From positions 1 through 52,840 of the forward strand of contig NZ_FXAM01000006.1 of NCBI RefSeq assembly GCF_900155475.1: a stretch of DNA of 52,840 nucleotides. Direction: 5' to 3'. The position numbers and the translations under genes were made by a program. Positions 28,313 through 52,293 of the stretch are shown here, in pieces. Each line of letters starts with the position of its first letter. The stretch's first letter is position 1. The stretch is from Methylomagnum ishizawai (GTDB lineage: Bacteria > Pseudomonadota > Gammaproteobacteria > Methylococcales > Methylococcaceae). The notes under the pieces are model-generated. The model worked only from the letters and a program-made list of their open reading frames with translations, was not told where the DNA came from and did not search any database.

Positions 28313-29368
28313 CCTGATTAGAAACCTTCTTCAGCCAGCCCGGCAAAATCCAGGTTTTCCTGATGGGAAGGCGCATACTGGTCGCCCTCCCAAGGAGGAA
28401 CCTACCCATGGCGATGAACCGCATCCAATTCCAACCGGGCCTGTCGTTGCCTGCATTTCTTGAACAGTTCGGCAGTGAGGCGCAATGCGAGGCCGCGCTA
28501 GAAAAAGCGCGCTGGCCCGAGGGCTTCCGCTGTCCCCGTTGCGGCCAAGCGGAGCATTCCGTGCTTCATGTCGGCGTCCACAAGACTTGCCAATGCCGGG
28601 ACTGCTAGCTGCAAACCTCGCTGATCGCGGGCACCCTGTTCCAAAGCACCCGCCTCCCGCTGACGATCTGGTTCCCGGCGATCTACCTGGTGGGCCACAG
28701 GCCAAGACCGGCTTATCCGCCCTGGCCCTGAAGCGGCCACTGGGCGTCAGCTACCCCACGGCCTGGTTGATCCAGCACAAGCTGATGCAGGCCATGGCCG
28801 AGCGCGACGCCCGGTACCGGCTGGACGGCCCGGCCCAAGTGGACGACGCCTATCTTGGCGGCGAACTGCCCGGCGGCAAGGTAGGGTGCGACTCCGAAAA
28901 CAAGGTGCCCTTCGTCGCGGCGGTTTCGCTCAACGCCGAGGGACATCCGATATACGTCAAGATGGCACCGGTTCCCGGTTTTACGCGCAAGGCCATCGCC
29001 GACTGGGCCAAGGCCGACCTCAACCCCGGTTGCCGGGTGGTTTCCGACGGCCTGGCGTGTTTCGCCGGAGTGGCCGACGCCGGATGCCTGCACCAGCCCG
29101 TCGTCGTCGGCACCCGCAAGCCCAAGGATCTGCCGCAGTTCAGTTGGATCAACACGGTGCTGGGCAACCTCAAGACCGGCTTCGGCGGTGCCTACCATGC
29201 GTTCGACTTCGCCAAATCCGGCACGCGCTACTTGGCCGCGTTCGTTTATCGCTTCAATCGGCGCTTCCATCTCGAGATGCTCCCCATGCGCCTCCTCGCT
29301 GCCGCCCTCGCCATCGACCCGCGTCCGGCCCCTTGGCTCCGTCGGGCTGAAGAATCTTGCTAATCAGG
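28313..29368 (+). mobile_element. IS1595-family insertion sequence
   Basis: A 1056-bp element with imperfect inverted ends. The left starts CCTGATTAGAAACCTTCTTC; the right is the reverse complement of CCTGATTAGCAAGATTCTTC. It encloses one broken transposase gene. A 4-bp AAGA lies immediately outside both ends, but the 8-bp duplication typical of the family is not evident. Its left end truncates the antiporter fragment; its right end lies 82 bp from the helicase gene's stop. Confidence 0.75.
28409..29363 (+). pseudogene. IS1595-family transposase, interrupted by a stop and frameshift
   Basis: The N-terminal zinc ribbon (CPRCGQ near residue 48 and CQCRDC near 65), then QTSLIAGTLFQSTRLPLTIW, KTGLSALALKRPLGVSYPTA, DDAYLGGELPGGK (catalytic Asp) and a C-terminal YRFNRRF block match ISXO2-like transposases. 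A TAG follows CRDC (about 28607) and a frame change occurs near 28690. The gene is inactive unless these are base-call errors. Confidence 0.8.
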
Positions 29369-29450: not shown

Positions 29451-32400
29451 TCACAACGGCTCAAGCAGGCCTGCAATATCGACCCTCCTAGTCAAGATGC
29501 GGTCCCTGATTTCCCCCTCTCTTCCAATATAAAATCCGGCCCTGATGCTCTCATAGCCTTCTTGTATTTTTTTCAAAATGTCGCGCCTAGTGGTCTTGGC
29601 TTCGTTTTCTGAAAGATTCGCCAACCTCTCTCTAAGCATCAACTCGTAATATCTGGTCAATTTCGGCTTGGTGCGTTCAGGGCTATGGAGGATCGAATAA
29701 TTGGAATCAAGGATCACGTCCTGATACCTGATCCTGTCCTGCCTGGAATCTCGGTTGGGCCGATAGCTCAGGAAGATCAAGCGATAAGCGACCACATATA
29801 GCATCAGACGGATCTTGTGTTGGCCACCCACACCTTTGAACCTGAACCCGATGTTGCGCCAAATTTCCTGCCCATACCGCACGTATATCCCCTCGACCAA
29901 CGTATCCAAAGCATCTAGGGATTCCTCTGTTTCCCCATGAATCCATATGGCCAGAATCCGTGCGGCCGCGTGGAGATACGACGGGCGTTTCCTGTCGTCT
30001 AGCGCCATGGCCAGGGGCAGGATCACCGGCGCATGCCAGTTCTTCCTGCCATAGAATCCCCAGATTTCTTGTTGATTGGCGGCGGTGAAGTTGTCGAGAA
30101 ATTCCTCGCTGTGGAGGTAGGGCGCGAACCAGACATTGAGCGCCAGGTTCTCGGCCAGGAGCGCCTCGTCCAGTTCACCGGCGGGCCGGTACCATTGCCC
30201 GAAGCTCAGGTACATTTCTCCCTCGTCGGTGATGGAGCCCCTTTGGTCGATGTAGCGCTTGTCCCGGAGCACTTCCTCGTACAGCAGGAACTCCCTTTCA
30301 GGGAGTAGCCTCTCCGGGAAGTAGTTCTGGACCATGGCGTAGCCGTCCCGGACGGTTAGCCCCTCCTCCTTGGGCGCGAATCGGGTGTTCCTGAGCATGA
30401 ACCGCTGGATTTCGTCGGCCTGGTCGAACGCGTCCTCCTTGAAGGTTGAAGTGGTGAATACCTTAAAGTAACCTGGGATTTTCCTTCCCTCGCTGAATCC
30501 ACGCGCGATCCTGGACGCCATCTGCCGCATGGTGTGATCGTCGTAGAAGAAAGTACTCCGATCCTCATTGTAGGCGCGCACCAGCAACCCCAGGTGGGTA
30601 TCCAGGCGGATTCCCTCCGCGATCACATTGGTCGTAATCAGGATCACCGGTCCCCGCTTGGAAGCGTTCTGCACCGCTTGCTCGATAACCTCCTTTTCCC
30701 CCACATATTTTGTGGCGGCGTACACATGGATGTTACGTTCCATTTCCCGATAACCAAGCCCCGCGAAATGGGCCTTTAATTCCATCGAGATTTGTTCCGC
30801 CATGGATTTGCTGAAACAAAAGATCGGGAGAAGCCGGGTCCTGCCGCAAGCCCCGAACTCCTCCTTGAAATGCCGCCGGACCCTATCGCCCTCGTTCCGG
30901 AGCGAAAGCGTCCTGTCCTCCCGGTTATATTCAATGCATTCAACGACTCGCTCGACGCAAGCATCCCTGGGGACGATTTCGCGGCGGTCCTCGATCTTGA
31001 CGTTGTTGGCGGTGAATCCCGATACCACCTTGTTGCAACCGACGATCCCCCGAATCTTGTCCTGCCAATAGGTGGGCATGGTCCCCGTCATCCACAGGAC
31101 ACGTATTCTGCGCCGCCCGTATTCCAGGAAAGTCGCGAACTCGTGGTAGGGCAGGTATTTGCGCTCGACCATGTTGTCCCCATGCACGCCCATCAAGCGG
31201 GAATGGATTTCGTCGCAGACCAGGCCCCGCAGCCGCGCTGCCCCCCGCTCCCGGTGGTAGAGGATTTCCTGGGCGTATTCGTAGGTCGAGATAACAACGC
31301 CGACCTTGGGCGCTTCGAAACCTACCGCCGTATCGCCATGGTATATCCGGATGTTGTCGGCGGACAGGTGGACGATCCGGTGGGCACGATAGAACTTCTC
31401 GTTGCGGGCCCCGCCCTCCGGCGTCGAATCGTCCAGGATATTCCGGTCGGAGAAGAAGCGGACGAACTCCTTCCGGGTATGGCCGGCCAGGGTTTTCTTG
31501 GGGACCATCACGATCACATGCCCATGGTCCAACCCCTCTAGCAAGGCGTTGACGAACAGCATGGCCGCGATCATCTTGCCGGAGTTGGTCGGGCTTTGGA
31601 TAACCGTGAGTGGAGGGATATCGTCCAGCCGGGCGACGACCTCGCGGTCGAAAACCACCTGCAACGGGGTGAGCGCGTCCCCGAGGGGCGGATCGAGCGG
31701 CTTGACCTCGCCCGCCACCGCGCTGGAAGACGACTTCACCACGTACTTGACGTCCTGGAGGTAGCCGGCGTCGCCGATGGAGATATCGACGCTGGGCAGG
31801 TATTCGACCATGAGGAGCCTGGACAGTATCTGCGTGGACCTCTCCCGGATTCCGGGAAGGGCCTTGGCCTCTTCGCGGCCGGCGTCGAAGCGCTCCACGA
31901 GATTCTCCTCCAGCGCGGCGTTGTCCCTCCTCAATGGTAGACGGCTATGGACCAGGTAGTTCTTCAAGCCGCACATCGGCATCGCGCACCTCTGGCAGCT
32001 ATGCACCAGAGTCGATTCAAGGTATTCCAAACGCGTCATCGGGAGCACGGAGCGCATGGACAGCTTGCCTGCGGCTTCCCCGACCCCGTTCCTCAAGGGG
32101 TCGCAATGTGAAAGGCCGTTGGCGCCCCCCCGGTATTTCCCGTCGGCGTAATCCGAAACGAACGCCAGCAACGCGTCCGTGATTTCCTCCCGCTCGATGT
32201 CCAGGGTGTTGAGGTAATGGAAGACCCCCTGGCAACTCACCGTCCCGCCCGCGCCGACCGCGATCTTCTCGATCCGCCTCAGGACCTGTTCGGGGTCGCG
32301 GAGTAGGCCCGGCGTCAGGTAGAGCAGCGCCTGGTGGATGGCGTCGATCCTGACCCCCCTTCCCAGGCGCGCCGCGCCGCCCCGGCGCCGGACCATGTCG

Positions 32401-33032
32401 CCCAGCACCTGAGCGTAGATGTATAGCTGCACGCGGTACTGGAAGAGGGCACCCGCCGACGCGTCCTGGTCACAGGACTTGGGCTCCATATACTTGCAGT
32501 CGAAGAGGTAGATTTCGCTGCCGGCCCGGATCACCATGTCGGGGATGCATGTCCCCGAGACCTCGACGATGGCCGCGCCGTCGCCGGTATCGACCTTTGG
32601 GGACATGAACGGATAGGTCCTCGCCATGTCCCCTTCCGGCTCGTAGAACACGATCGAGAAACCTTCCCGGCCATCCAGCAGGGCGGATTCCAGAGAGCTT
32701 TCCCCAGGCGCGTCGTCCTCCTTGAACAGGTGTCGGACCGTGGTTACGGAACCGCCGAACCGCCGCTTGAGGATGAGCTTGAAATCCTCCTCGGCCAGCC
32801 TTCCCGCGCCCCGCTTGTCCGCGACGGCGACGGGGGCGATGCCCATCTCCAGCCGGTTGTCGAAGTAATGGTGGAAAAGGTTGTCCAGGCAGGCATTGAG
32901 GAAGGCGACATCCCGCGCGCGCGTGGGCACCGCGTCGGCGGCAAATTTGAGCTTCTCCTTGTAGTTGAGATAGTTCTCGAGGTAGGTCCCCATCCTCGAG
33001 GAAACCACCTTGACCGCGCTCATCTTATCCAT
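29451..33032 (-). CDS. PD-(D/E)xK nuclease - SF2 helicase fusion with Cas4-like cysteines (gene C of three-gene operon)
   Basis: A 1193-aa protein, start ATG 33032 with AGGAGG seven nt upstream and a 13-nt overlap with the SF1 helicase gene. Residues ~160-185 carry IPDMVIRAGSEIYLFDCKY, a PD...D-x-K nuclease core. Near residue 347 is CQRCAMPMC (CxxCx4C), placed after the nuclease core like the iron-sulfur cysteines of Cas4/AddB-type nucleases. The SF2 motor has SPTNSGKM (Walker A, ~482), VCDEIHSRL (DEIH, ~606), LLITTNVIAEGIRLD-type motif V and RQMASRIARGFSEG (motif VI, ~837). The C-terminal 300 residues are unassigned. It probably unwinds and cuts DNA or RNA as part of a defence complex. I recognise no named system for it. 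Confidence 0.85.
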   Translation of the reverse strand: MDKMSAVKVVSSRMGTYLENYLNYKEKLKFAADAVPTRARDVAFLNACLDNLFHHYFDNRLEMGIAPVAVADKRGAGRLAEEDFKLILKRRFGGSVTTVRHLFKEDDAPGESSLESALLDGREGFSIVFYEPEGDMARTYPFMSPKVDTGDGAAIVEVSGTCIPDMVIRAGSEIYLFDCKYMEPKSCDQDASAGALFQYRVQLYIYAQVLGDMVRRRGGAARLGRGVRIDAIHQALLYLTPGLLRDPEQVLRRIEKIAVGAGGTVSCQGVFHYLNTLDIEREEITDALLAFVSDYADGKYRGGANGLSHCDPLRNGVGEAAGKLSMRSVLPMTRLEYLESTLVHSCQRCAMPMCGLKNYLVHSRLPLRRDNAALEENLVERFDAGREEAKALPGIRERSTQILSRLLMVEYLPSVDISIGDAGYLQDVKYVVKSSSSAVAGEVKPLDPPLGDALTPLQVVFDREVVARLDDIPPLTVIQSPTNSGKMIAAMLFVNALLEGLDHGHVIVMVPKKTLAGHTRKEFVRFFSDRNILDDSTPEGGARNEKFYRAHRIVHLSADNIRIYHGDTAVGFEAPKVGVVISTYEYAQEILYHRERGAARLRGLVCDEIHSRLMGVHGDNMVERKYLPYHEFATFLEYGRRRIRVLWMTGTMPTYWQDKIRGIVGCNKVVSGFTANNVKIEDRREIVPRDACVERVVECIEYNREDRTLSLRNEGDRVRRHFKEEFGACGRTRLLPIFCFSKSMAEQISMELKAHFAGLGYREMERNIHVYAATKYVGEKEVIEQAVQNASKRGPVILITTNVIAEGIRLDTHLGLLVRAYNEDRSTFFYDDHTMRQMASRIARGFSEGRKIPGYFKVFTTSTFKEDAFDQADEIQRFMLRNTRFAPKEEGLTVRDGYAMVQNYFPERLLPEREFLLYEEVLRDKRYIDQRGSITDEGEMYLSFGQWYRPAGELDEALLAENLALNVWFAPYLHSEEFLDNFTAANQQEIWGFYGRKNWHAPVILPLAMALDDRKRPSYLHAAARILAIWIHGETEESLDALDTLVEGIYVRYGQEIWRNIGFRFKGVGGQHKIRLMLYVVAYRLIFLSYRPNRDSRQDRIRYQDVILDSNYSILHSPERTKPKLTRYYELMLRERLANLSENEAKTTRRDILKKIQEGYESIRAGFYIGREGEIRDRILTRRVDIAGLLEPL

Positions 33033-34978
33033 AAATAGCCTCCTCGGCGGCTCCGGGTCAGGGCGACATACAGGAGGTCGATGGTCCCGCTGAAAGGATG
33101 GCACTTGTGGACGGGCCTGCCGCTCTCCCGGACCTTGCCCGTCGCGATCAAGGCGTATCCCTCCAATGTCAGCCCCTTCGATTTATGGATGCTCGTGTAG
33201 TACAGGAACCCGTTCGACCCGCACAGCCCCTCATAGAACCAGTGATTGAGGTTCATCCCGAAAAAGTGATCGAGCTCCTCGAACGAGGATACGCAGCGCC
33301 CCGTGGCGGTGGCGAGGAACTCGGCCAACTCGGCGTCGGTCCTGGCCGCGACCATCCCCGCGTAGTCGCGGATGACTCCCTGGCAATAGGTGTCGAGCCG
33401 TCTCGCGATGGGATGGCGGTCGCGCACCCTTGCCTCGACGAAGCCGAACGCCCCGCAATAGGCGACGAACAAGGAAAGCGACCGCTTGATCAGGCGCGCC
33501 AAGTGGATGCCCGGCCCCTCGTCGTCGCCCGGCTTCGCGGAGGCAGGGTCGAAATGGCAATCCAGGATATAGCCATAGTCCGCGTCGATCTCCTCCCGGC
33601 GCTCGACGAAATTTCTGAAGAGACTCAATCCGGTATCGAGGCGGAGCGTCTCGGCCGCAAAGCCTACTTCATGGCTTTGCAACACTTCTCGGAGGGGACG
33701 GCCATCCTCCTTTTTGGGATTCAGACGCGTAAAGAACAAATCGATGAATTCTTGACGGAACAGGGTGATGACCCGCTTGCCGTAGGCGGCCTCGATCCTG
33801 GCGAGCTCGTCGCCGTTCGGCACGTTCTCGCTGGCCTTGTAAAGGTTCCGGACCCCAAGCACCATGTGGGTGTTCTTCGCCACGTCCCGGTCGATATCGG
33901 CGATATTGGTCACGATCCCGAAGAAATCCCCCGGCCTTTCCCTGTCCGCCCCCCGGATGGGGTCGGGGAATATCGCGTCCGAGTAAAGTCCGGCGATATT
34001 GAACAGCGCCGGGCTTTTTCCGTTCCTTCCGGGCAGTTCCCCGTGATATTCGGAGTAGGCGGCATTCATCCTGGTGAGCAGGCCATGGCTGAACCGATGG
34101 CTCGTGTCCAGCCGCTCCATCCCCTCGATCGCCTGGACCGCCCTTTCGTCCACCCTGCCCTGGAACACGCGGTGGGCGCCCCACAGGAATCCGGAAATAT
34201 CGATCCGGTTCGTTCCCGGCACGGACCCATCGCCCTTGGCCAGGCTCGGGCAGGTGGTCGGCTTCATGCCGGAATAGACCATCTGGCGGTCGTCGCCCGT
34301 GATCAGGACGTGCCGGATCCGGCCGATGGCGTAGAGACACAGGATGGGTGCGAGCTTCGCCAAGGTGATGTCCTGGGCCTCGTCGAGGATCAACAGGTCG
34401 ATCACCCCGCCGGGGAACAGCGAATTGGGTATCAGTTCGGCGTCGGGAACGACCGGGTCCGCGATACGGCGCATAATCCCGTATTGCGCGGTGTTGGCGA
34501 TCCCCGGATCAAGGCTCCATGCCTTGAGCATGTCACCCAGCGAAAGCGATCCGGTCAGGAACACGTTGGCCAGGTTCCGCCCGGCCTTCGTTTCCGGGTC
34601 CTTGCCGATCAGGTCTGAAACCGCCTCCTGGCCATCGGCCAGCCACGGCTTCGCAAGGCGCTGTAGGAAGCTGTCCACGGTGTGGAAGGCGCAGAAATGC
34701 CCGCAATTCAAGTCGTTCAGGCCGCTCACGAAGTCGATGCGGCTTTGGTTGGTCAATATCCGGGTATAGGTGACGCTGGCGATGTTCAGGGGGCTCGAGA
34801 TCGCGCTCGGATAGGCGCGCAGCGCCGGGAAGTGCCGGATGACCTCGTTGATCACGGTGGTCTTGCCGGACCCCGGCACGGCATAGCCCAGGAGGATGGA
34901 CTGGTTGCGGTTGGACGGCTTCATTTTGTTTTCTATGGGAAGCCGCCCCGTTCGCGCGGGGACGGCGGGGTTATCCAT
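33020..34978 (-). CDS. UvrD/Rep-like SF1 helicase (gene B of three-gene operon)
   Basis: A 652-aa protein. Walker A is VPGSGKTT at about residue 33-40, motif Ia follows at IASVTYTRILTNQSR, Walker B is LLILDEAQD near 198, motif III is HVLITGDDRQMVYSG, and near the C-terminus come YYTSIHKSKGLTLEGYAL (motif V) and LLYVALTRSRRGGY (motif VI). The set is complete, so ATPase activity is expected. It starts 19 nt after the stop of the 922-aa gene if ATG 34978 is used; ATG 34924 would start closer to the P-loop. The 3' end overlaps the next gene by 13 nt. Shorter than UvrD (~720 aa), with reduced 1B/2B-like insertions. Confidence 0.88.
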   Translation of the reverse strand: MDNPAVPARTGRLPIENKMKPSNRNQSILLGYAVPGSGKTTVINEVIRHFPALRAYPSAISSPLNIASVTYTRILTNQSRIDFVSGLNDLNCGHFCAFHTVDSFLQRLAKPWLADGQEAVSDLIGKDPETKAGRNLANVFLTGSLSLGDMLKAWSLDPGIANTAQYGIMRRIADPVVPDAELIPNSLFPGGVIDLLILDEAQDITLAKLAPILCLYAIGRIRHVLITGDDRQMVYSGMKPTTCPSLAKGDGSVPGTNRIDISGFLWGAHRVFQGRVDERAVQAIEGMERLDTSHRFSHGLLTRMNAAYSEYHGELPGRNGKSPALFNIAGLYSDAIFPDPIRGADRERPGDFFGIVTNIADIDRDVAKNTHMVLGVRNLYKASENVPNGDELARIEAAYGKRVITLFRQEFIDLFFTRLNPKKEDGRPLREVLQSHEVGFAAETLRLDTGLSLFRNFVERREEIDADYGYILDCHFDPASAKPGDDEGPGIHLARLIKRSLSLFVAYCGAFGFVEARVRDRHPIARRLDTYCQGVIRDYAGMVAARTDAELAEFLATATGRCVSSFEELDHFFGMNLNHWFYEGLCGSNGFLYYTSIHKSKGLTLEGYALIATGKVRESGRPVHKCHPFSGTIDLLYVALTRSRRGGYLWIR

Positions 34979-34997
34979 TCCACGCCACGGCGGGCCG

Positions 34998-37766
34998 TCA
35001 CATGAACAGGCTCAACTTGATCATCCCGTTGCGCCGTTTCGCCTTTGAGAAATTGCGGACGCTGGTGATGAACAGGTTGTTCAGCGAAGGATCGGCGTAA
35101 TGGGCGTCGATATCCTCCCGGAACCGCCTCAGGATGCCGTTGCGCCTCTCCTTCTGGTCGGCGTTCAGGGGCTCCCCGGAATAGCCGTCGTCCGCGATCA
35201 TCTTGACCATTGCGTCGATGATCGGCGCGTTCTCCTTGACGATCCACTTCTCGGCCAGGGCCGCGTTCCCGGTCACCTTGTCGATGGCGTGGATGATCGC
35301 GTGGTCCCTGATTTCCAGGAACGAGGTCGGAAGCACCAGGTCCTTGGCATGGAGTAGGCTCAGGAGGTTGATCACTTTGCCCAGGTTGCCGCCGACGTCC
35401 CCGCCTTCCGGCAGCCTGACCTCATAGGGCTTCTGCTGGAGCGCGTCCTGGCGTTTCGCGTTGAAGGACACATAGGCCTCGGTGGGAGAGACGTCGCATA
35501 CCAGCAAGCCATTCGGTTTGGCCTTAGAGGACGGCGAAGCCGCGCCCGCGTCCGGGTAGTAGATCTGGACTCGCATGTTCTTGGGGATGAACGCCACGAT
35601 CACCTTTTGGGCAACGCTCTCGGGATCTGCGTTCATTTCGCCGAGGCAATTGAGCAACTCTTCCTTGATCTGCTTGGCGTGCTTCCAGGAATGGAAGTTG
35701 CCGTCGAAGATCAGGAAAAGGTAGGACTGTTCGTCGCCCTCCAGGATAAGGTCGCGGATCTCCTCCTTGAGCCTCGGATCCTTGTTCACCAATTCCCGCA
35801 TCAGGCCGCGCTCGTCGGTATGCAGCGCGTCGAACATCTGCACGGAACCGTTCCGGGCGAACTCGTCGATCGTGATGACTTCGATGAATACGCCATGCTG
35901 GGCGTTGCGCGCCGAATCGGCGTGCCGGTTGTCGAAGAAGATCGCCTTGCTCCGGCCGCCGATCCCGAAATCGGTCGCCATGTAATCAATTACCTTGGAA
36001 GGGGCGTCCTCCAGATCGCACAGCAGCTTCCTTTGAAGCTGGGCCTCGACGTTCTTGCGGACGAAATCGTTGCCGTGCAGCAAGTCGTCGGCCCGGTTGC
36101 AGAACTGGATGATGTTCCCGCTGGACAAGGACAGGCACTTGTAGAGGATGTAGGCCAGGTTTTCCAGGGCGGTATGGTCGCCGCTGGCGGCGATGCCTTC
36201 CCCCTTCCTGATCATGAGCCTCCCCCTGGCGTCCTTGGGCAGTTCCGCCAGGTTGCGGACCCCGTGCTGGCTGGCCCAATACGCGACCAGGTCCGCCTCC
36301 CTCAGGTTGAAATTGAACAGCGCGTAGTCGTCAGCGAAGAAGTGGCGGATGCCCTTCGGCTTCCTGCCCAGGGAAACGGTCTTGGCGTGCATTTTCCTGG
36401 GATCGACCGATGCCTTGGCCGGGAACACGGCTTTGCCCGTAGGCTGGATGCGTCCTTCGCAGGTTCCCAGGGCCATGCCGTATTCGGCCTCCTTTTCTTG
36501 GAGGGTCCGGTAAATCAAGGCGCTGATGTAGTCCTTGTTGGCGGTCGTTTGGTGGACGCTTTCCGACTCGAGCTTCTCAGAGCCAGGATCGAGCGGGAAC
36601 ATGTTGCCCACCACGACGTCGGAAGGCATCTTCGCGCAAAAATAATCGTAGGCTTCGGACTCCTCGTCGAAGGCGTGCGAAACCTTGAAGCCGGACACCT
36701 GCGCCAGGTCCTCCCCGGTCATCTTGATGACCGTCGAATACGGCAGGGCATAATCCTTGTAGCTCAAAGTGATCGATTGGTAGACGAACGCCAGCTTGTT
36801 GAGCAACGCCTTGTCCTCGATCTCCGACCTCTCGATCTTGGATTCCGGAACGATCATGGGCGAACCGAAGATCAACGCGTCCTTACCGTCGACGAACCGG
36901 TCCGGTGCGTCCAGCGCCCCCTTCCTGACGAGCCTCGGCGTGACCGCGAAATCGAAGCTGTATTCCGAACGGTCGAGCGATTCCCTGCGCAGGACGATCC
37001 TGACGACCCGTCCAAGGTAGCTATAGAAGAGCGTGACCACCTGGGTCTTCAGGCTGTTGTAGGTGCGGATATGCGGCAGGAAGAATAGCTGGTTCCTTTC
37101 CTTGTCCGATCCCGGCGCGCGCAGCTTCGATTCCCTGAGCGCCCGGTAATGAGCCCCACCCAAAATGTTCTTGTCGCAAGCCTTCGGATTCTTGGGGTCG
37201 ACCACATTCAACGATAAGGGGGTGCCGAGCGATACCGACACCGTGCCGACGCCATTGGGCAGCACGTCCTCCACGGCCAGCCGGTGGTCCAGGATATCGT
37301 GGAAGGACATGAAGATGTATTTGATTTCGCGGATCGACCGCACATAATCCAAAATGAATTGTTGGCGCCGGGCGAAAAGTTCGGAAACGAACCCATTGAA
37401 AGGGACGTTTCCGGAATTCCTGAGATTGGACAGACCCGGCTTCCCCATGATCCGATCGATCACGTCATCAAGGTCGAAGTCGGACTCAGACTCCTGAGCC
37501 GCGTCCTGGTAGACGAAAGCCTGGAAAACCGTTCCGTCGATCGCCTTGAATTCCTGAACATGATTGAAAATAAATGCGCGCTTCCGGATATCCGCCATAG
37601 GCGTGCCTGATACCAGGTCGATCTTCTGATCTTCTGTCAAAAAGATGTTGCCCGACTTGCGTTGATAAAGGCCAAAATGGGTGTGTCTTGCCTCATCCTG
37701 CAAATGTCCCGTAATCATCTCGATGACCGAAGAGGAAAGCGTGAATGTATTTCTGAGAAATTTCAT
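34998..37766 (-). CDS. Unrecognised 922-aa protein heading the helicase operon (gene A)
   Basis: No family is recognised. Start ATG 37766 (MKFLRNTFTLSSSVIEMITG); a further in-frame ATG lies 27 nt upstream. No signal peptide or membrane helix is seen. The N-terminal 300 residues are mixed alpha/beta with DFDLDDVIDRIMGKPGL. The middle has LFYSYLGRVVRIVLRRESL and YQSITLSYKDYALPYS. At about residues 620-700, HGVFIEVITIDEF and LFLIFDGNFHSWKHAKQI faintly recall the core and end of some restriction-type nucleases, but no clean D/E-x-K set is visible. The last 180 residues include ALQQKPYEVRLPEGGD. It is the first gene of a compact operon with two helicases, so it may be the sensor or specificity part. 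Confidence 0.8.
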   Translation of the reverse strand: MKFLRNTFTLSSSVIEMITGHLQDEARHTHFGLYQRKSGNIFLTEDQKIDLVSGTPMADIRKRAFIFNHVQEFKAIDGTVFQAFVYQDAAQESESDFDLDDVIDRIMGKPGLSNLRNSGNVPFNGFVSELFARRQQFILDYVRSIREIKYIFMSFHDILDHRLAVEDVLPNGVGTVSVSLGTPLSLNVVDPKNPKACDKNILGGAHYRALRESKLRAPGSDKERNQLFFLPHIRTYNSLKTQVVTLFYSYLGRVVRIVLRRESLDRSEYSFDFAVTPRLVRKGALDAPDRFVDGKDALIFGSPMIVPESKIERSEIEDKALLNKLAFVYQSITLSYKDYALPYSTVIKMTGEDLAQVSGFKVSHAFDEESEAYDYFCAKMPSDVVVGNMFPLDPGSEKLESESVHQTTANKDYISALIYRTLQEKEAEYGMALGTCEGRIQPTGKAVFPAKASVDPRKMHAKTVSLGRKPKGIRHFFADDYALFNFNLREADLVAYWASQHGVRNLAELPKDARGRLMIRKGEGIAASGDHTALENLAYILYKCLSLSSGNIIQFCNRADDLLHGNDFVRKNVEAQLQRKLLCDLEDAPSKVIDYMATDFGIGGRSKAIFFDNRHADSARNAQHGVFIEVITIDEFARNGSVQMFDALHTDERGLMRELVNKDPRLKEEIRDLILEGDEQSYLFLIFDGNFHSWKHAKQIKEELLNCLGEMNADPESVAQKVIVAFIPKNMRVQIYYPDAGAASPSSKAKPNGLLVCDVSPTEAYVSFNAKRQDALQQKPYEVRLPEGGDVGGNLGKVINLLSLLHAKDLVLPTSFLEIRDHAIIHAIDKVTGNAALAEKWIVKENAPIIDAMVKMIADDGYSGEPLNADQKERRNGILRRFREDIDAHYADPSLNNLFITSVRNFSKAKRRNGMIKLSLFM

Positions 37767-37939
37767 GGAATATTCCAGTAGGGGCCGATGCATGGAAAAG
37801 TTAACTGATTCACGCCCTTACGGGAGTGATATTTGCTGTTCTCCTAGACGGGCCTCCAGTCGGTTAATTCTACTTTAAATTTAGAATTAGAACTTACGCA
37901 TTGACGGCGGTTTTGAATTGATGGTTTAGGTGTTTCTTG
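37767..37939. other. Upstream region of the helicase operon with an IS end
   Basis: Contains the promoter region for the minus-strand operon (no confident -35/-10) and the junction with IS debris. TTAATTCTACTTT at 37864-37876 also occurs at the end of the IS701 remnant (7133-7145), which suggests a related IS end. Confidence 0.35.
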
Positions 37940-38485
37940 CCGTCCGTGAAGCCGCTGATGAAAGCCGCCACCACCTCCTTGTACTATCTGCTGGATGTGC
38001 TTCTCCAATTTCCTGCGCGTGAAGTTGCGGTCGTGCGCGTTGACCGCCTTGAACTTGCTGCCGTCGATGGCCACGGTGGCCTGGTTGAACAGGTTCAGTT
38101 CGCGGCACAGCAGGACGAACTGTCGACACACGCCACGCAGGCCCGGCCCATGGTCCCGTCGGAAGTCGGCGGTCTTGAAATCGGGCGCCAACCGCCCGGT
38201 CAGCCACATGAGCTCGACATTCCTCAGCGCCTTGCCCTCCAGGCGGCGGCTGGACTGGATGCGGTTGAGGTAGCCGTAGAGGTAGAGCTTCAGCAGCACC
38301 GAAGGATGGTAGGCGGGGCGGCCCTTGGTGGCGGGGACGACCTTGAACCCCAGCGCACCCAGGTCCAGGTGGTCCACGAACAGGTCGACGGTGCGGACGG
38401 GGTTGTCGTCGGCGATATAGTCATCCAGGGCTTCGGGGAACAGCGTGGTCTGCCGCCGGTCATCGCCCTCCACGAATCGCTTCAT
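37940..38485 (-). pseudogene. IS1182-family transposase, N-terminal remnant
   Basis: From ATG 38485 the frame reads MKRFVEGDDRRQTTLFPEAL, GRPAYHPSVLLKLYLYGYLN, RIQSSRRLEGKALRNVELMW, LTGRLAPDFKTADFRRDHG and VAIDGSKFKAVNAHDRNFT, the N-terminal third of IS1182 transposases including the first catalytic Asp. After about 37985 the family sequence is lost. In another frame the tail reads AAFISGFTDGKKHLNHQFK, seemingly from a different element. A fusion or deletion has destroyed the gene. Confidence 0.75.
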
Positions 38486-38887
38486 CTGCCCCTCTCTCGC
38501 TTCGAAGTTACGAAGGGCAAATTTTACCAATCGCGGTGTTTTCACACAGCCTGGCCGAGGAGCGGGCACTCCCGGCTGGGCCTGTCGTTTCGATAACCGC
38601 GCTATCAACGGGAGCCTCACCCGGAGGCGCGGGCCGCCATTTTGCGGGCGATCCGGATGCGCGGCAGGAACGCGGTTCCCCAGGCGAAACTCAGCGATGT
38701 CTCCGTGCCGGTCGGGGCGGCCAATGAGCCGATGCACGGCGATGTTGCATGAAACCTTCGATGTTGAAGCTGTGTCGTGGACGGCGTTCCCCGTCATGCC
38801 CGCGCCGGTTTCCGCGCGTGGGCGTGGTGGAGGCACCGGCCTCCCGGGTTCGCCGCCGGGTGGGGGCCGGGGTACCGGCGGGTTGGG
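38486..38887. other. Spacer between IS1182 remnant and HTH-GTPase gene
   Basis: About 400 bp with no supported gene. TTTTCACACAGCCTGG near 38538 is probably the outer end of the IS1182-type element. The rest is GC-rich, with short frames lacking ribosome-binding sites. The HTH-GTPase stop lies at its right edge. Confidence 0.4.
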
Positions 38888-41038
38888 TCAGGCCCCCGGC
38901 TCGAGCAGTGCCGTCACGCTATGGAGCGCCCGCGCCCATTCCCGCTCGATCAGCGCCTTCAGCTGTTTTTCGAGACTGTCGCGGGCGGCGTCGGCGAACC
39001 AGTCCCGGTTGTGCTTGGCGATACGGTCCTTGTAGCCGGGACCCTGGCCCCACTCGCCCACGCACTGCCGCCAAAACACGGGATCGCTCTTGAGGGCGGC
39101 TTTGAAGACGGTTTGCCCCATCAATTGGGCCTTGCGCAGGAGCTCCTCGTACGCGGCGGTCAGCACCCGTTGCGCCTGGGTGATCAGGTCGGCCGCCTCG
39201 GCGTAGCCGGGGGTTGCCGCCATGATTTTGCAGTGGCCGATGAACGCCTCCACGGCCTTGTGGAGGGCCAGCACGGCGATCCTCCGCGCCCCGTAGCCGA
39301 TCTGGTAGGAATAGCTCAGGTTGGTCCACTCCCCCTCGCGGTTGATGGAGGCCCGCACGGTCGCCGCGTAGGCGATCTGGATTTGTTCGAGCAGGCTGTC
39401 CTGCACATGGGCATGGACCGGTGGCACGGCCGCGTGCAACTCGGCCCAGGTGTTCAGGCTCTTGCCCGCCTCGCGCAGGACCGCGCGGACCCGTTCCTCG
39501 CCGTGGTTCGCCAGGAGCGCCCGCGCGCCCTCGATCGCGCCCTGGATACGGGCGCGGAACGCGTCGCGGATGGCGGCCAGGCGCCCGACCAGGAACTCCT
39601 GGGCGCGGGTCGCGAGGTCCTCGTTGGCGTTGTAGAAGCCCACCGCGAGGGTTTGCAGGCCCAACGGTTGCAGGGCCAGTTCGATCTGCTCGGCCTTGAG
39701 CTCGTAGCCCTCCTCGGCGTCCTCGGCCGGCGAGCCCGTCGCGTCGTCCTTCATGGCGAGCGCCTCGCCGGGGCGGGGCAGCACCAACAGGGCCGCGTTG
39801 GTTTCAAGGCCGCGGACGCCGGCCTCCTTGGCGCGCTCCAGCAGGAGCCTCGCCTCCGCCGCCGGCGCGTTGTTGAACGTCGAGCACAGCACCGCCAGGG
39901 TATGCGGGTCGTCGAGGTGGACCTCGATATCCTCGCGGGCCGCGGTGCGGTCGATCCCCTTGGTGTCGATGATGCGGACCGTGAGGTCGGAGGCCTTGAA
40001 CAGGCTGTCCGGCACGACCACCTCGATCCGCTTGGGGAGCGTGAATTCGGGATGGCGGCCGTTGTTGATGGCCGAGAACGTATCCTTGAGCCAGGCCCTC
40101 GGGGCCTTGCCGGACGCCTCGTCGTACCAGATATCGCGCCGGTCGCGGCGGTGCAGTTCCATGCGGCTGAGCACCTCGACCACGAACTCCCGCGGCGAGG
40201 GGAACTCCTCGGCCAGGTCGTTGGCGGGATCAATCACCGCGCGCTTCCCGTCCGGGCCTTTGGAACGCTTGAGCGCCAGCCCGGCCATGTTGCGCAGCGC
40301 CCGCGCCACTTCCTTGGATATCCCCTGGGACTCGGACCCCCCGGAACCCTCGTCCTCGGCCTGGGCGCTCCCCTTCAGGATGTATTCCGCCAGGTCGGCG
40401 ACATCCTGCCGGATCTCGTCGTCGCCGCGCGGCTCGATGATGACGCCGTACTCCGGCCCCGAGCGGAGGTGGACCTCGCAGATCGTGATGCCGCCGCCGC
40501 CGACCTCGAGCACGGGGGCCGGGGAACCGTCCTCCCTCGGGGTCTCCAGCCCGGTCATCCGGCAGATCGCCGTCGACTTGCCCACCCCGATGCTCCCGAT
40601 CAGCGCCACCTGGTGGTCCCGCTTCAGGATGAGGCTGGCGCCGCGCTTCAGTTCCTCGATGTATTCCGAAAGGCGGCGCTCGAAGGCTTGCGGCGTGTCG
40701 GGCTGGTCCCTGAGCTCGGCTAGGTCGCGGGCGACCCGCTCGGCCTCCCACAACAAGCCCTGGTCCGGATGGTCCAGGTTGGGACGCGGCAGTACCCGCC
40801 ATTCCCGCTGGAGCGCCTCCGAGAGCGCACCGGCCTCCGGGGTGGCGATCTGGTCCAGGATGTCCTGCAATTCCTGCAAGGTCACCTGACGCTCCCCGCT
40901 CTCGATGCGGGACAGCACGGCCGCGCTGAGGGAGACGCGCCTTGCCAATTCCGCCTGCTTCAAGCCCGCCCGGTCGCGGACCAGCATAAGGTACCGGCCG
41001 AGTTCCGCCGGATTGATCGTGGATTCTTGCTCTGACAT
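38888..41038 (-). CDS. XRE-type HTH fused to a P-loop GTPase (dynamin-like)
   Basis: A 716-aa protein, start ATG 41038 with GGAGGA seven nt upstream. Residues ~10-65 form a Cro/C1-type HTH (YLMLVRDRAGLKQAELARRV, SLSAAVLSRIESGERQ). Walker A/G1 GSIGVGKST is near residue 150 and a G3-like RIIDTKGID near 358; LRNMAGLALKRSKG lies in a long insertion. The C-terminal ~250 residues are helical with alanine-rich heptads and could form a dynamin-like stalk; no membrane helix is seen. A transcription-factor domain on a large GTPase is unusual and suggests a self-controlled stress or phage sensor. A 12-bp-arm palindrome lies just upstream. Function unknown. Confidence 0.82.
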   Translation of the reverse strand: MSEQESTINPAELGRYLMLVRDRAGLKQAELARRVSLSAAVLSRIESGERQVTLQELQDILDQIATPEAGALSEALQREWRVLPRPNLDHPDQGLLWEAERVARDLAELRDQPDTPQAFERRLSEYIEELKRGASLILKRDHQVALIGSIGVGKSTAICRMTGLETPREDGSPAPVLEVGGGGITICEVHLRSGPEYGVIIEPRGDDEIRQDVADLAEYILKGSAQAEDEGSGGSESQGISKEVARALRNMAGLALKRSKGPDGKRAVIDPANDLAEEFPSPREFVVEVLSRMELHRRDRRDIWYDEASGKAPRAWLKDTFSAINNGRHPEFTLPKRIEVVVPDSLFKASDLTVRIIDTKGIDRTAAREDIEVHLDDPHTLAVLCSTFNNAPAAEARLLLERAKEAGVRGLETNAALLVLPRPGEALAMKDDATGSPAEDAEEGYELKAEQIELALQPLGLQTLAVGFYNANEDLATRAQEFLVGRLAAIRDAFRARIQGAIEGARALLANHGEERVRAVLREAGKSLNTWAELHAAVPPVHAHVQDSLLEQIQIAYAATVRASINREGEWTNLSYSYQIGYGARRIAVLALHKAVEAFIGHCKIMAATPGYAEAADLITQAQRVLTAAYEELLRKAQLMGQTVFKAALKSDPVFWRQCVGEWGQGPGYKDRIAKHNRDWFADAARDSLEKQLKALIEREWARALHSVTALLEPGA

Positions 41039-41071
41039 GAGTTCCTCCAAGGAAAGGTTTCCATGAAACTA

Positions 41072-41116: not shown

Positions 41117-41346
41117 CAACAATTCGCATGGATGGCTGGCGACTGGAGTACGGCGGCACGGCCAACCAGGGGATGCCGGGGATCCGGCGGGCCCCATGGC
41201 TGGCCCGGCATCGATCCCTCCCCCCAAGGTGTGGCGCGGCCCGGGGCCCCACTGGACAATTGGGATCATTCTGTCTAATGTTCCGGAGCCCGCCCCAGCA
41301 AATACGCGGGGTCGCGGCTTGTCTCGACGCGCAAATATTGGACAAA
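41117..41346. other. Spacer between divergent HTH-GTPase and recombinase genes
   Basis: 230 bp, GC-rich, with no supported gene. The recombinase frame is open upstream of its ATG but has no family features there. Confidence 0.35.
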
Positions 41347-41910
41347 ATGAACAAGGCATCCAAAGACGACCGCCGCCACCTGACCCAGGGCGAGGTGCAA
41401 CGGCTCATTGCCGCTACCCAGGGCAGCCGCAATGAAGCCCGGGACCGGTTCTTCCTGCTGCTGATGTTCCGCCACGGCCTGCGGGTGTCGGAGGCGTGCG
41501 GCCTGAGGCTGTCCCAGCTGGACCTGGAGAACCGGGTGCTGCACGTCGCCCGGCTCAAGCGCGGGCTGTCCACCACCCACCCGCTCCGGGTGGACGAGGT
41601 GCGGCTGGCCAAGGCGTGGCTCGCGGAGCGCGCGCGGATGGGTCCGGAAACCGACGCCGTCTTCGTCAGCGAGCGGCGCGGCCCCCTGAGCCGCAAGACC
41701 GCCTGGCGCTTCATCCGCGCCTACGGCGAGCGGGCGGAACTGCTCCTGTCAGCCCATCCGCACATGCTGCGCCACGCCTGCGGCTTCGCGCTCGCCGACC
41801 AGGGCGCGGACACCCGGCTGATCCAGGATTATCTGGGACACCGCAACATCCAGCACACAGTCCGCTACACCGCCACCAACCCGGCGCGGTTCGGGCGGCT
41901 ATGGCGGTGA
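41347..41910 (+). CDS. Small tyrosine recombinase (FimB/XerD-like catalytic domain)
   Basis: A 187-aa protein consisting almost only of the catalytic domain, like FimB/FimE invertases (~200 aa). MFRHGLRVSEACGLRLSQLD has the first catalytic Arg, HPHMLRHACGFALADQG the H-x-x-R box, and DYLGHRNIQHTVRYT the GH motif and the nucleophile Tyr. ATG 41347 was chosen because homology begins there (HLTQGEVQRLI). It points away from the HTH-GTPase gene and towards the ABC-3C operon. It could invert or resolve a nearby segment, but no matched inversion sites are obvious. Confidence 0.9.
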   Translation: MNKASKDDRRHLTQGEVQRLIAATQGSRNEARDRFFLLLMFRHGLRVSEACGLRLSQLDLENRVLHVARLKRGLSTTHPLRVDEVRLAKAWLAERARMGPETDAVFVSERRGPLSRKTAWRFIRAYGERAELLLSAHPHMLRHACGFALADQGADTRLIQDYLGHRNIQHTVRYTATNPARFGRLWR

Positions 41911-42051: not shown

Positions 42052-43008
42052 ATGGCAAATAACAATAATAATTATTGGTATCGAATTTTGTTCAAGGTTA
42101 AGGTTTATGAGGCGTCTGGAGATTCCTTCCAGCGGTTGGTCAATGACCTGTGCCAACATAGTTGGGTTGGATTCCAAGCTATTTCACCATGGGGGAATTG
42201 GGGGGATGGCGGTAATGATGGGTGGGTCCAGGATGACCAGCATTATCTACAGGTTTATGCCCCCAAACCGACAACCGAATTGAATGCGGTTGATGCCGCC
42301 AAAAAATCCGTCAAAGATTTCCATAAACTTCTGAATAAGTGGTCAGCAATTAAAAAATACTCATTTGTACTCAATGATCGGTTTGTCGGAATCCCTGCCC
42401 CGGTGGCCCATGCCATGGAAGAAATCAAAACCACGCATAACCTGGCACAGGCACGGCCCATTGGAAGCGCCGACCTGGAATCCATGTTCATGGGGCTTCC
42501 CGAAGACCTGCGCCAAATCATCGTCGGCGGGATACCCTCTTGCTCTTTAAGTACTGTTGATGCTAGCGCTGTCGGCGAGTTGTTATCGAATTTGGCGGAT
42601 AACATAACGCCATTGCCGCCTCTTCTAATTAACCCAAACGCGCCAGATTTCGACGAAAAAATAGCTTTCAATGGACTGACATCACCGGTTTCAGAATACC
42701 TGAGGGTATCCTCTTATCAGGCGAGCTTGGTCGATGATTTTCTTTCCAGGCGTGATCCTGGTTTGCAGCAGGCTGTCTCCGAGGAAATCAGCGGACTATA
42801 CGCCACCAGTAAAGAAGAAATTCCGGATACCGATCCTGACGCGGCCAATATCCGTTATGCCTGGATGCTGGATCGGCTTATTCCCGAGGCGGGACGACAG
42901 CATCCACACAGTTGGAAGGCCTATCGGGAAGCCGCGCAAATTGTCCTCGCCAAATTCTTCGAAACCTGCGACGCCTATGAGTATCCAGACAGCAATCCTG
43001 CCGCATAA
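42052..43008 (+). CDS. ABC-3C-type effector (CTD) protein with nuclease-like N-terminus
   Basis: A 318-aa protein complete across the contig junction, start ATG 42052. Residues ~15-75 look like a restriction-endonuclease-like domain: SFQRLVNDLCQHSWVGFQAI, then WGDGGNDGWVQDDQHYLQVY, where the Asp and the Gln-Val-Tyr strand take the place of D...E/Q-x-K. The C-terminal ~115 residues (PDFDEKIAFNGLTSPVSEYL, then LVDDFLSRRD) fit a CTD of ABC three-component systems, which docks the effector to the ATPase via the middle component. The stop overlaps the middle component by 32 nt. The AT-rich start of the gene differs in composition from the flanks, suggesting transfer. The exact CTD class is uncertain. 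Confidence 0.75.
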   Translation: MANNNNNYWYRILFKVKVYEASGDSFQRLVNDLCQHSWVGFQAISPWGNWGDGGNDGWVQDDQHYLQVYAPKPTTELNAVDAAKKSVKDFHKLLNKWSAIKKYSFVLNDRFVGIPAPVAHAMEEIKTTHNLAQARPIGSADLESMFMGLPEDLRQIIVGGIPSCSLSTVDASAVGELLSNLADNITPLPPLLINPNAPDFDEKIAFNGLTSPVSEYLRVSSYQASLVDDFLSRRDPGLQQAVSEEISGLYATSKEEIPDTDPDAANIRYAWMLDRLIPEAGRQHPHSWKAYREAAQIVLAKFFETCDAYEYPDSNPAA

Positions 43009-43246
43009 GCATGTGCGCTTTTGCGATTCCATCGTCGGCCTGGCGGGGTTCCTGCGCCAGTTATTGGAGGAACCCCGGACCATCGATGAGCTATGGGCGC
43101 TGCTGGACCGTGAGAACTCCGGTTGGCCCGTGCGTCCGACCTTTACGAACCTGGTGCTGGCCGTGGATATTCTGTTCGCGATAGGACAGGTGGCGGAGGC
43201 CACGAATGGCCGGGTGCGCCTGGTGATGACCCATGAAACTGATTGA
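42977..43246 (+). CDS. Small ABC-3C middle component (MC6-like), copy 2
   Basis: Identical 89-aa frame to 318-587. Here it lies behind a complete effector gene, confirming the overlap of 32 nt upstream and 14 nt downstream. Confidence 0.65.
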   Translation: MSIQTAILPHKHVRFCDSIVGLAGFLRQLLEEPRTIDELWALLDRENSGWPVRPTFTNLVLAVDILFAIGQVAEATNGRVRLVMTHETD

Positions 43247-44940
43247 ACTGTCCAGCGACAAACCATCCTTCAAAACCCTCCGGTTCAATCCGGAGGGATT
43301 GACGCTGATCGTCGGGGACGGGGCGCAGGACAGTAGGAAGGATGGCAGCAGTAATGGGGTTGGCAAGACCTTGGCTTTGGGGCTGGTCCATCATTGTTTG
43401 GGGGCCAATGCCGACAAAAAACTGAAAGCGGCGGTTCCCGATTGGATGTTCCGGCTGAGGCTTAGCCTCAATCAAAAGGAACACCTTATCGAGCGCAGCG
43501 GCGATGGAAAAACCCTGATTTTGGATGGAGCCCCAATCAGGCTTAACGCGCTCCGTGACTGGCTCAATGAGTGCGGAGCGTTCCGGCTTGACCCGCACAT
43601 CGAGGGCCTGAGTTTCAGGGCGCTATTCCGCCGGTTCGCGCGGCATGAACGCGAGGATTGCCTCGATCCCCTGAGGACGAACAAGGAAACCCCGTTCGAC
43701 GCCCAGCTGCGGAGCCTTTATCTGTTGGGGGTGGACTGCTCCCTGGCGCAGAGCAAGCGCCGCCATAAGACGGAGTTGGACAACCTCAAACAAACCAGCA
43801 AGACCTGGCAGCATGATCAGGTTTTGAAGGATATGTTCCGCGCCGGGGCCCAGCCCAAGGTGCGCGCCGAATGGCTGGAAAAGGAAATCCCGCGCATCAA
43901 GGCGGACCTCCAGGGTTTCCAGGTCGCGGAGAACTACCGGGCGATCGAAGTACAGGCATCCGAACTGACAAGCCAGATACGGGAGAATGAACGGAAAACG
44001 GCGGTCATCCATTTCCAGCTTGAGGGGATCGACAAGGCCCTGAGGCAGCAGCCGGATATCTCCCGCGACGACCTGTTGTCCCTGTACCAGGGCATACAAA
44101 GCGTCTTCAAGCCCGACGTGCTCGCGCACTTCGATGCGGTCGAGAGATTCCACCATTCCCTCGCCGCCAACCGCAAAGCCAGGCTGGAACAAGACCGGCT
44201 GGCCTTGCACGGGGAACTTGCCTCGATAGAGGCGGCCTCCAGGGAAGTCGCGGCCAGGAGGGACCAGCTGCTCCAGACCTTGCAGGGGAAGCGCGCGCTT
44301 GACGAATATGCGGCCTTGGCGAACCAATTGGCGGTGCTACAGGAGGAGCAGCACCGCCTCAATGAGTTCCTGAACTTCGCGGCCAGCCTCAAGGAAAGGG
44401 AACAGGACATCAAGGAGAAGAAGGTCGAGGAAGACCGGACGGCCGCCGAATACCTTGGCGGCAACCCCATGGCCAATCCCGACAAGGTATTCTCATGCCT
44501 CGCGGAATTGCTCTATCCCAGGACGCCCGCGGGCATCGTCATGGAGAACAACACCGGGGACAATCAGATCCGCTATGACCTGACCGTGCAGATTGAGGGC
44601 GACGCCTCGGACGGGATCAACGCCGCGCGCATCCTATGCTTCGACTGGCTGTTGCTGATGCACGGGGCCAACCACACCATGGGGTTCCTCTGGCACGACA
44701 ACAGGCTGTTCGCCGATATCGACCCGCGCCCCGGGCCGCCTGGTTCTCGTACCTCATGGGCGCGATGCCCGGCACGGGGAAGCAATACATCGCGACGATG
44801 AATACCGAGAACTTCGCCGCGATGGGCGAGCATATCGCGCCCGACCACATGGAGGCGCTCAACAAGGCCGTCCGCGCCACGCTGCGCGGGGACGCCCCGG
44901 GGAATAAGCTGCTCGGGATGCAGTTTGGCGGCCAGCTATA
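43233..44940 (+). pseudogene. ABC-3C DUF2326-like ATPase, copy 2 (frameshifted near 44732, probably by sequencing error)
   Basis: Here the N-terminal half is open. The frame runs through the P-loop (SNGVGKT), the coiled coil (including LLQTLQGKRALDEYAALANQ) and IDPRP, then loses one C in GCGCCCC near 44732 and goes out of frame. The correct ending (AAWFSYLMGAMPGTGKQ to FGGQL) continues in the next frame to 44940, as copy 1 shows. The consensus gene is intact at 569 aa. The protein should form an SMC-like dimer that senses or threads DNA and controls the effector. Confidence 0.8.
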
Positions 44941-44941
44941 G

Positions 44942-45149
44942 GTGGCGACGACCAGGGATCCACCAGCGTGACGCCGGTGCCGGTGATCGGGGTCTCTGTC
45001 AGCGACGCCGCCAGCCCGTCCTAGATCGACGTCTCTTGGACGGCGGTCTCCAGGGCGACCGGCTACAAGGCGTATGTGGCGACCTCCAAGCCCGGTCCCT
45101 TTGCTCTGTTTTCGTCATGGTTGCGGGTGAACCGGGAACTTATGGATAG
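44942..45149 (+). pseudogene. Fibronectin type III-like remnant, copy 2
   Basis: Same as 2284-2490, including the in-frame TAG before IDVSWTAVS, so that stop is not a sequencing error. Confidence 0.45.
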
Positions 45150-45933: not shown

Positions 45934-46183
45934 GATTTTTTAAAAAATTGTGCTACTGATTCATTAAAGCACATCGCCCCTTTAGGAAATCCTAAAATCC
46001 GATGTGCCTGCTGCAATTGCGCCAATTCCTGACCGAGCCGGGCTTGTTCGCCTTCTCGACCCGGAAAACCCGATCCTTCGGTGGAACTCCCCGTCATCCC
46101 TGTCCGCGCACCGCACCGACTTCGTCGCCAAGGATGCGGTCTGGTCTGAGCCACCTGCGGCGGCACGTCCCCGTTTTTTCAGT

Positions 46184-46399
46184 GATCTTTTGTGATGTGA
46201 CCGGATCCAAGCAGATCCAGTTGGATCCAATTTTTGCTGTTGTAAGGTGGTGCGTGCTGTGTCGGCGTTGATTTGAAGCGATTCGTTCCAGATCCGACCG
46301 GATTCGATTGGATCCATAGGTGATTCGTGCCGTGTTCGTGTTGTTTTGGTTTCGTGTCGAAATGATGCAACTAGATCCGTTTAGATCCATTCTGGATCC
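46184..46399. repeat. Phased GATCC arrays, copy 2
   Basis: Same three arrays as 3525-3740, with unchanged spacing (for example GATCC at 46204, 46214 and 46224). Confidence 0.65.
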
Positions 46400-46508
46400 G
46401 ATCGTTTTTCAGGTGACCGAATGGTTTTCGGCGATTTTTCTTTATTTTGTTAATCAAATAAAAACTTTTTGGTTTTCCTATGCGACATCCTTGGTTTTTA
46501 TTAAGATA

Positions 46509-46559
46509 CCTATTATTCGCTATGGAATTTTTAGGTGTTATGAGTTAGCGAATAATAGG
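46509..46559. promoter_or_regulatory. 14-bp inverted repeat upstream of the recombinase, copy 2
   Basis: Identical to 3850-3900. Confidence 0.6.
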
Positions 46560-46625
46560 GGCTAGGTGGCCCCAGGTGCCCGAAAGCCACCCATCGAAAA
46601 CCTGAAAATTTCTTGGAAACCAGAC

Positions 46626-52284: not shown

Positions 52285-52293
52285 CTGGGGGGT

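Follow-up and report, generated by a model that had tools for sequence, protein, structure and literature searches.

The question raised by this locus is whether three large, closely spaced genes on a contig from Methylomagnum ishizawai (NZ_FXAM01000006.1) encode a nuclease-helicase system that acts against foreign DNA. The window, namely the whole stretch of DNA that was analysed, is 52,840 nucleotides in length. A preliminary description had placed the three genes in a compact minus-strand operon with a 19-nucleotide gap followed by a 13-nucleotide overlap, and an analysis of the open reading frames confirmed the frames and both distances: genes A and B are separated by 19 nucleotides, and B and C overlap by 13 nucleotides when C begins at position 33032. 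The genes and the short elements associated with them are as follows.

34998 to 37766, minus strand: gene A, an open reading frame of 922 amino acids; an upstream ATG at 37793 would extend it to 931
33020 to 34978, minus strand: gene B, 652 amino acids; a complete, divergent UvrD-like SF1 helicase
29451 to 33032, minus strand: gene C, 1193 amino acids from the ATG, or 1217 from a GTG at 33104; a nuclease-SF2 helicase fusion
33039 to 33044, minus strand: AGGAGG ribosome-binding site of C, read from the sequence and lying within B
37811 to 37828, minus strand: CACTCCC-gtaa-GGGCGTG, an imperfect inverted repeat that precedes A and is a candidate operator

The AGGAGG sequence precedes the ATG of gene C at 33032, and none is positioned equally close to the alternative GTG start. 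Its location inside gene B suggests that the translation of B and C is coupled. All three frames are longer than the longest open run, 571 codons (median 238), obtained when the region was subjected to 300 Markov randomisations, and chance is thus an unlikely origin for them. The GC contents at third codon positions (0.81 for A, 0.83 for B, and 0.78 for C) match those of HsdR (0.83) and HsdM (0.78) from the same plasmid. Neither a promoter-like nor a terminator-like site was found at the edge of the operon upstream of A. The inverted repeat is a possible operator for the three genes; with up to three mismatches allowed, its 29-nucleotide surroundings occur once in the window, and 16 nucleotides of it have a single exact occurrence in the host genome. 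A CRISPR-type repeat upstream of A was ruled out, given the single copy and the lack of an Rfam match in the window.

Protein B had been taken for a complete UvrD-like SF1 helicase, and this assignment holds, although the sequence is very divergent. The motifs AVPGSGKTT (Walker A), DEAQD, GDDRQ, HKSKG, and ALTR follow one another in the order that defines the UvrD-like SF1 enzymes, and the polypeptide terminates directly after motif VI. The GSGKT of the Walker A motif was read directly from the sequence, a stricter Walker A pattern having given no match. Pfam models AAA_19 (8.6e-7) and Viral_helicase1 (1.5e-5) scored weakly, both above cut-off, and UvrD-helicase (2.2e-4, 21.5 bits) fell slightly below its cut-off of 23. 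The best PADLOC matches are to GajB models and are weak (5e-6 over 41 residues). A GajB-like UvrD helicase from Variovorax shares 26% identity with B over 346 alignment columns. The UvrD helicases of two Variovorax loci (H6 and H7) resemble B, but both loci were rejected as relatives in that A and C are absent there.

The features recognised in protein C are the following.

32415 to 32543, minus strand: PD-(D/E)xK motif (PD..., DCK, QLYIY), residues 188-230
31971 to 31997, minus strand: C-x2-C-x4-C (C370, C373, C378), a candidate Fe-S cluster site of the Cas4/AddB/Dna2 type
30465 to 31616, minus strand: SF2 helicase core, from its motifs (PTNSGKM, DEIH, TGT, EGI, QMASRIAR) and Pfam

The proposed fusion of a PD-(D/E)xK nuclease to an SF2 helicase was recovered in both its parts, the nuclease being filed by motif only because C, whether whole or in pieces, matched no Pfam nuclease model. 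The helicase motifs occur in the order expected for SF2, and the Pfam models DEAD (3e-7, 30.7 bits versus a cut-off of 26) and ResIII (2.1e-5) both scored above cut-off; PF12705 and DUF1998 gave no match. N-terminal to the helicase core lies the RecB/Cas4-type pattern PD-x(n)-(D/E)xK-x(n)-QxxxY. In Cas4, AddB, and Dna2, nucleases that hold an Fe-S cluster, a cysteine is followed by the PD-(D/E)xK motif, QxxxY, and a cysteine triad. The same order is observed in C, where Cys72 precedes the nuclease motif as a possible fourth ligand and C370-x2-C373-x4-C378 follows it. The triad suggests an Fe-S cluster site. When the first 480 amino acids were shuffled 20,000 times, 44 shuffles contained the nuclease motif by itself and none combined it with the triad, figures that are generous since the pattern was written after inspection.

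Beyond these motifs, the best PADLOC matches of C are weak and are to the Cas3 (5e-4) and PbeA models. Its helicase core is 26% identical to that of a HamB/PDC-M23B-like helicase from Ensifer over 214 alignment columns. Helicases from Rhizobium and Ensifer (H2 and H3) were rejected as relatives, the likeness to C being confined to the helicase core and the Ensifer protein being PDC-M23B/HamB-like. A single-sequence AF2 model of the N-terminus of C (pLDDT 37) was too poor for a fold search.

Protein A, which the preliminary description could not assign, matched no family above threshold in PADLOC, NCBIfam, Pfam, or PHROGs. No family at all was returned by PADLOC or NCBIfam, and the best sub-threshold values were 0.21 for Pfam and 0.018 for PHROGs. 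When the protein was cut in thirds, the sole Pfam match was again below threshold (Copper-bind, 0.18); sub-threshold matches in pieces of A and C also included VWA_CoxE (0.008) and ADP_ribosyl_GH (0.04). A search of A against the PDB gave no convincing match, and its single-sequence AF2 model (mean pLDDT 32) was too poor for a fold search. Residues 691-731 (931-amino acid numbering) display a strand, W-x3-K, and Q-x-V, a MID-like combination. This pattern, drawn up after the segment had been viewed, is present in none of 209 background ORFs other than A and in 34 of 2000 shuffled versions of A, and the segment overlaps with the best local pLDDT of the poor model. An alignment of A with two short pAgos by hhalign returned a probability of 0.3%, and the pAgo and PprPIWI models of PADLOC gave no match at E values up to 1. 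Having failed the hhalign comparison, the assignment of A as an Argonaute survives as a bold reading only. A Piwi search in 36 genomes found nothing.

The operon is carried on a contig whose ends repeat one another, positions 1-10189 being 99.8% identical to 42660-52840. The contig therefore represents a circular plasmid of ∼42.66 kb that was assembled with an overlap, and a feature located in one terminal stretch is very probably identical with its counterpart in the other. The preliminary description had also placed type I R-M and ABC-3C modules on this plasmid, and both are there. The principal features outside of the operon are listed below.

15856 to 23481: type I R-M locus in which a PDC-S02 (YhcG/DUF1016) gene separates M from S
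28313 to 29368, plus strand: IS1595 element at the downstream edge of the operon, with 24-nucleotide inverted repeats
37844 to 38836, minus strand: fragment of an IS1182-type transposase that borders the operon upstream (Pfam DUF772; similar plasmid DNA is annotated as IS1182 transposase)
38888 to 41050, minus strand: gene for a 720-amino acid protein with HTH and P-loop, upstream of A past the IS1182-type fragment
41128 to 41910: tyrosine recombinase that resembles DNA invertases and adjoins the ABC-3C pair
42052 to 44801: ABC-3C pair, comprising a CTD10 protein and a DUF2326 protein (PDC-M68A/B)

The plasmid also encodes KfrA, and the IS1595 transposase appears to be divided between two reading frames. 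Plasmid searches revealed no close relative of the backbone: 22 records share the R-M, IS1182-type, and recombinase stretches only (22000-46900), and plasmid records gave no match to positions 1-12000 of the window. The presence of IS sequences on both edges of the operon is the pattern that would be expected of acquired cargo.

Homologues of the three proteins were sought in several collections. Searches with tblastn of 72,556 plasmid and 50,697 phage records revealed no homologue of A, B, or C (plasmid thresholds of E 1e-5 for A and C and 1e-3 for B), and at E values up to 10 there were weak partial matches only. The genome samples ranged from 101 to 398 species, with overlapping draws, and represent a small part of the genome collection. 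Within them, A was absent outside of its own genome in samples of 101 and 299 genomes, as was C in samples of 369, 311, and 398 (own genome included in each case), and B had no relative besides its own genome among 219 genomes of its class. Weak matches to C numbered four, one, and two in the 369-, 311-, and 398-genome samples, respectively, and covered 88-122 residues around the Walker A motif; the four from the first of these resemble HsdR restriction subunits when judged by eye. Fourteen further places in 13 genomes of the 299-genome sample matched A with E values of 0.002-0.07 and were treated as noise.

Peptide-pattern scans, which detect close relatives only, found no relative of A, B, or C in viral contigs. 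Two altered-copy alignments of C matched 47 and 40 stretches of the viral contigs, and the pattern for A matched 14 stretches of the genome contigs, with no relatives among them. A degenerate helicase-motif DNA pattern identified one locus in the viral contigs and 16 in the genome contigs; none of the 17 was related, and a single match to A at an E value of 0.29 occurred among them. As a positive control, the HTH/P-loop protein was located in 19 plasmid records, 18 of which were covered at 80% or more, and in 14 of 201 genomes (including its own and two with matches to the HTH part only), and the search reached as far as a relative that is 26% identical across 577 residues (E 9e-40). Given the ease with which this control was found, relatives of A, B, or C of comparable divergence would probably have been visible in the sets searched. 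Conserved co-occurrence of the three genes across genomes, which the preliminary description had set as its own test, was absent within these sets, and it stands unproven because none of the three yielded a homologue. Likewise, a three-gene system of this type was not recognised among the literature matches listed.

Relatives of the HTH/P-loop protein were found at 22 loci. Sixteen of these align including the HTH part, L085 aligns from residue 96, and five (L086-L090) encode longer proteins that align from approximately residue 94-129. In L066, the relative is 81% identical and is followed, after a gap of ∼0.7 kb, by genes for a TIR/REase-APAZ protein and a short pAgo; TraG and relaxase genes lie upstream. 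Other neighbours include DruH3 of Druantia III (L084), PtuA of Septu (L096), a GajA-like ATPase (L098), and DUF262 proteins with partial similarity to HEC-05/PDC-M55C (L094 and L095). In total, defence genes were seen near the relatives in six of the 16 loci, a count that has no matched control; the genes scanned were chosen by eye, and the loci are interdependent (L094 and L095 are alike). Two further loci gave weaker matches, to DpdB (L081, 5e-11) and to CARF_PDDEXK (L083, 1e-7). The neighbour scan covered ten of the 16 loci, leaving out L082, L091, L092, L093, L097, and L100; in L099 and L101, one neighbouring gene was scanned in each, with no match. According to the annotation, L091 and L097 have no defence gene next to the HTH/P-loop gene, L093 has HNH-endonuclease and toxin-antitoxin genes nearby, and L100 has HipA-type genes nearby, whereas L092 carries no annotation. 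The HTH/P-loop protein itself was negative when compared with two short pAgos by hhalign. It is possible that this family, which is found on both plasmids and chromosomes beside various defence systems, serves as a regulator or marker of defence islands.

The preliminary description saw no correspondence with the gene order of Gabija, Zorya, Druantia, DISARM, Hachiman, BREX, or pPIWI-RE, and comparison with PADLOC, NCBIfam, Pfam, and PHROGs likewise gave no full match to a named system. The features compared did not assign the set to any such system, and among those of PADLOC 2.0.0 there were weak partial matches only (B to GajB at 5e-6, C to Cas3 at 5e-4, and none for A). The likeness to Gabija resides in protein B, whose best weak matches are the GajB models, and neither A nor C matched GajA. 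For Hachiman and PDC-M23, HamB-like helicases are the best plasmid matches of C across the helicase core only, and C had no match to the HamB model at E values up to 1, with no match to HamA. The two motors and RecB-family nuclease motif in one predicted complex are reminiscent of AddAB, RecBCD, and AdnAB. Here, however, the nuclease sits on the SF2 motor, N-terminal to its helicase core, B ends directly after motif VI, and A did not match RecC or AddB in Pfam or NCBIfam.

Several published arrangements are closer in their parts. In the portion of PMC5704561 considered here, the predicted defence components include UvrD-Cas4 fusions, which lie close to type III R-M genes, and a Cas4-like protein associated with SF2 helicases of the YprA type (COG1205). 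These share with the present operon a RecB/Cas4-type nuclease accompanied by a UvrD-like or SF2 helicase, in part beside R-M genes; they differ in that the nuclease of C is N-terminal to the SF2 helicase, the UvrD-like helicase B is encoded on its own, and the set has a third large subunit in A. ApsAB, as described in an excerpt of PMC11096173, consists of an SF2 helicase-PD-(D/E)xK protein and a divergent Argonaute-like protein whose only matches were to proteins of unknown function; the system removes plasmids and was inactive against eight phages. Compared by description, C contains the helicase-nuclease half of ApsAB/DdmDE and is likewise accompanied by a partner that has no relatives of known function, whereas its nuclease is N-terminal rather than C-terminal, and the UvrD-like B is an addition. 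For the Argonaute half, the hhalign result for A constitutes a weak test. ARMADA, according to part of PMC12458937, resembles the operon in having a UvrD helicase similar to GajB alongside SF2 helicases, but it also has a methyltransferase and a YprA-type helicase, neither of which was revealed by Pfam and PADLOC scans of the present operon. The pPIWI-RE triad, in the section of PMC3702460 at hand, comprises pPIWI-RE, a DinG helicase, and an REase in three genes, whereas the helicases here are of the UvrD and DEAD types and A has no PIWI match. In the parts of PMC12458937 and PMC12839542 that were available, there is no triad matching A, B, and C.

The three genes thus form a real, intact, and rare helicase-nuclease operon in defence-rich surroundings, built from parts of known kinds in an arrangement for which no match was found, together with a protein, A, of unknown kind. 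Of the multi-subunit defence system originally proposed, the two motors, the one nuclease motif, and the defence-rich setting have stood, whereas co-occurrence of the three proteins in other genomes was absent within the sets searched; the evidence falls short of establishing a new defence system of conserved composition. We judge the case to be evenly balanced for the reading that the products form a plasmid-borne, ATP-driven complex that degrades foreign DNA and is carried as defence cargo. According to this model, A, B, and C would be co-translated as the subunits of one DNA-processing complex. B, as an SF1A enzyme, would translocate 3'-5' on one strand, and C would travel on the duplex or on the other strand and cut or resect, its nuclease presumably held by an Fe-S cluster. 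A would serve as the recognition or scaffold subunit, loading the motors on foreign DNA such that the host is spared. The candidate targets are phage DNA, a competing plasmid, and DNA ends and replication intermediates.

This reading draws on the geometry of the operon with its AGGAGG sequence inside B, on the helicase and nuclease motifs and the cysteine triad, and on the weak best matches of B to GajB models and of C to the Cas3 and PbeA models. It draws as well on precedents, namely the UvrD-Cas4 fusions and the Cas4-like proteins with SF2 helicases in part of PMC5704561 and ApsAB in part of PMC11096173. The type I R-M locus with PDC-S02, the ABC-3C/PDC-M68 pair, and the defence neighbours of the HTH/P-loop family on other replicons and genomes point in the same direction. 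Counted against it are the lack of a homologue for A, B, or C, the uncontrolled neighbour count, the lack of a promoter-like or terminator-like site upstream, and the two loci (L091 and L097) in which no defence gene is annotated by the HTH/P-loop gene. Repair, too, makes use of similar helicase-nucleases, and the main rival is accordingly a plasmid-borne recombination or repair machine of the AddAB/RecBCD type that processes ends or stalled forks for plasmid maintenance and has no immune role. Two motors and one RecB-type nuclease are indeed the parts list of RecBCD and AddAB, and the triad behind the nuclease motif of C resembles that of AddB. In AddAB and RecBCD, however, the nuclease is C-terminal on an SF1 helicase, whereas that of C is N-terminal on an SF2 helicase. 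The absence of any match in 72,556 plasmid records argues against a common backbone module, and IS sequences flank the genes. The cargo-like setting and the HTH/P-loop neighbour family favour the degradation of foreign DNA, and we regard a repair machine as rather unlikely.

It is very improbable that the genes are unrelated or decaying mobile-element genes brought together by chance; the IS sequences on both sides and the lack of relatives elsewhere would fit such an origin, but each frame is intact and shows strong codon-position bias, the motifs are complete, and the overlap of B with C comes with a proper ribosome-binding site. An anti-plasmid system akin to ApsAB/DdmDE, with A as a guide-binding, Argonaute-like subunit that has diverged greatly and B as an additional motor, would account for the composition of C, given the SF2 helicase-PD-(D/E)xK protein and divergent Argonaute-like protein of ApsA/ApsB (PMC11096173, in part), and for the MID-like pattern of A. 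That pattern was devised post hoc, however, the hhalign comparison and the pAgo/PprPIWI models lend A no such identity, and the nuclease of ApsA is C-terminal, such that we consider this kinship distinctly improbable.

If the complex works as a defence machine in the manner outlined, it would represent a helicase-nuclease architecture unmatched in the libraries searched, with a 922-residue subunit that belongs to no family. The rarity of the operon would imply that the defence repertoires of small plasmids hold systems that are invisible to co-occurrence surveys. The boldest form of the proposal, which we think unlikely, is that this is the first known machine in which a separate UvrD motor, an Fe-S nuclease-SF2 motor, and a wholly new recognition subunit, which may be a guide-binding protein that has diverged, jointly destroy invading DNA as one plasmid's weapon against phages or rival plasmids.

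The HTH/P-loop family could be used as bait for more cargo of this sort. Near two of its distant relatives, a similar-looking set of genes was observed (L081, 2085-6280, and L101, 11160-19020) that encodes ATP-binding, radical-SAM-like, and DGQHR/DpdB-like proteins, those of L081 having been recognised partly by eye. This set is perhaps another defence or DNA-modification module. Finally, two stretches of Variovorax megaplasmids (L027, 3393-13504, and L028, 9419-19578) display an identical gene order comprising an RNB-domain ribonuclease, a UvrD helicase that in L027 is GajB-like, and a number of similarly sized hypothetical proteins.
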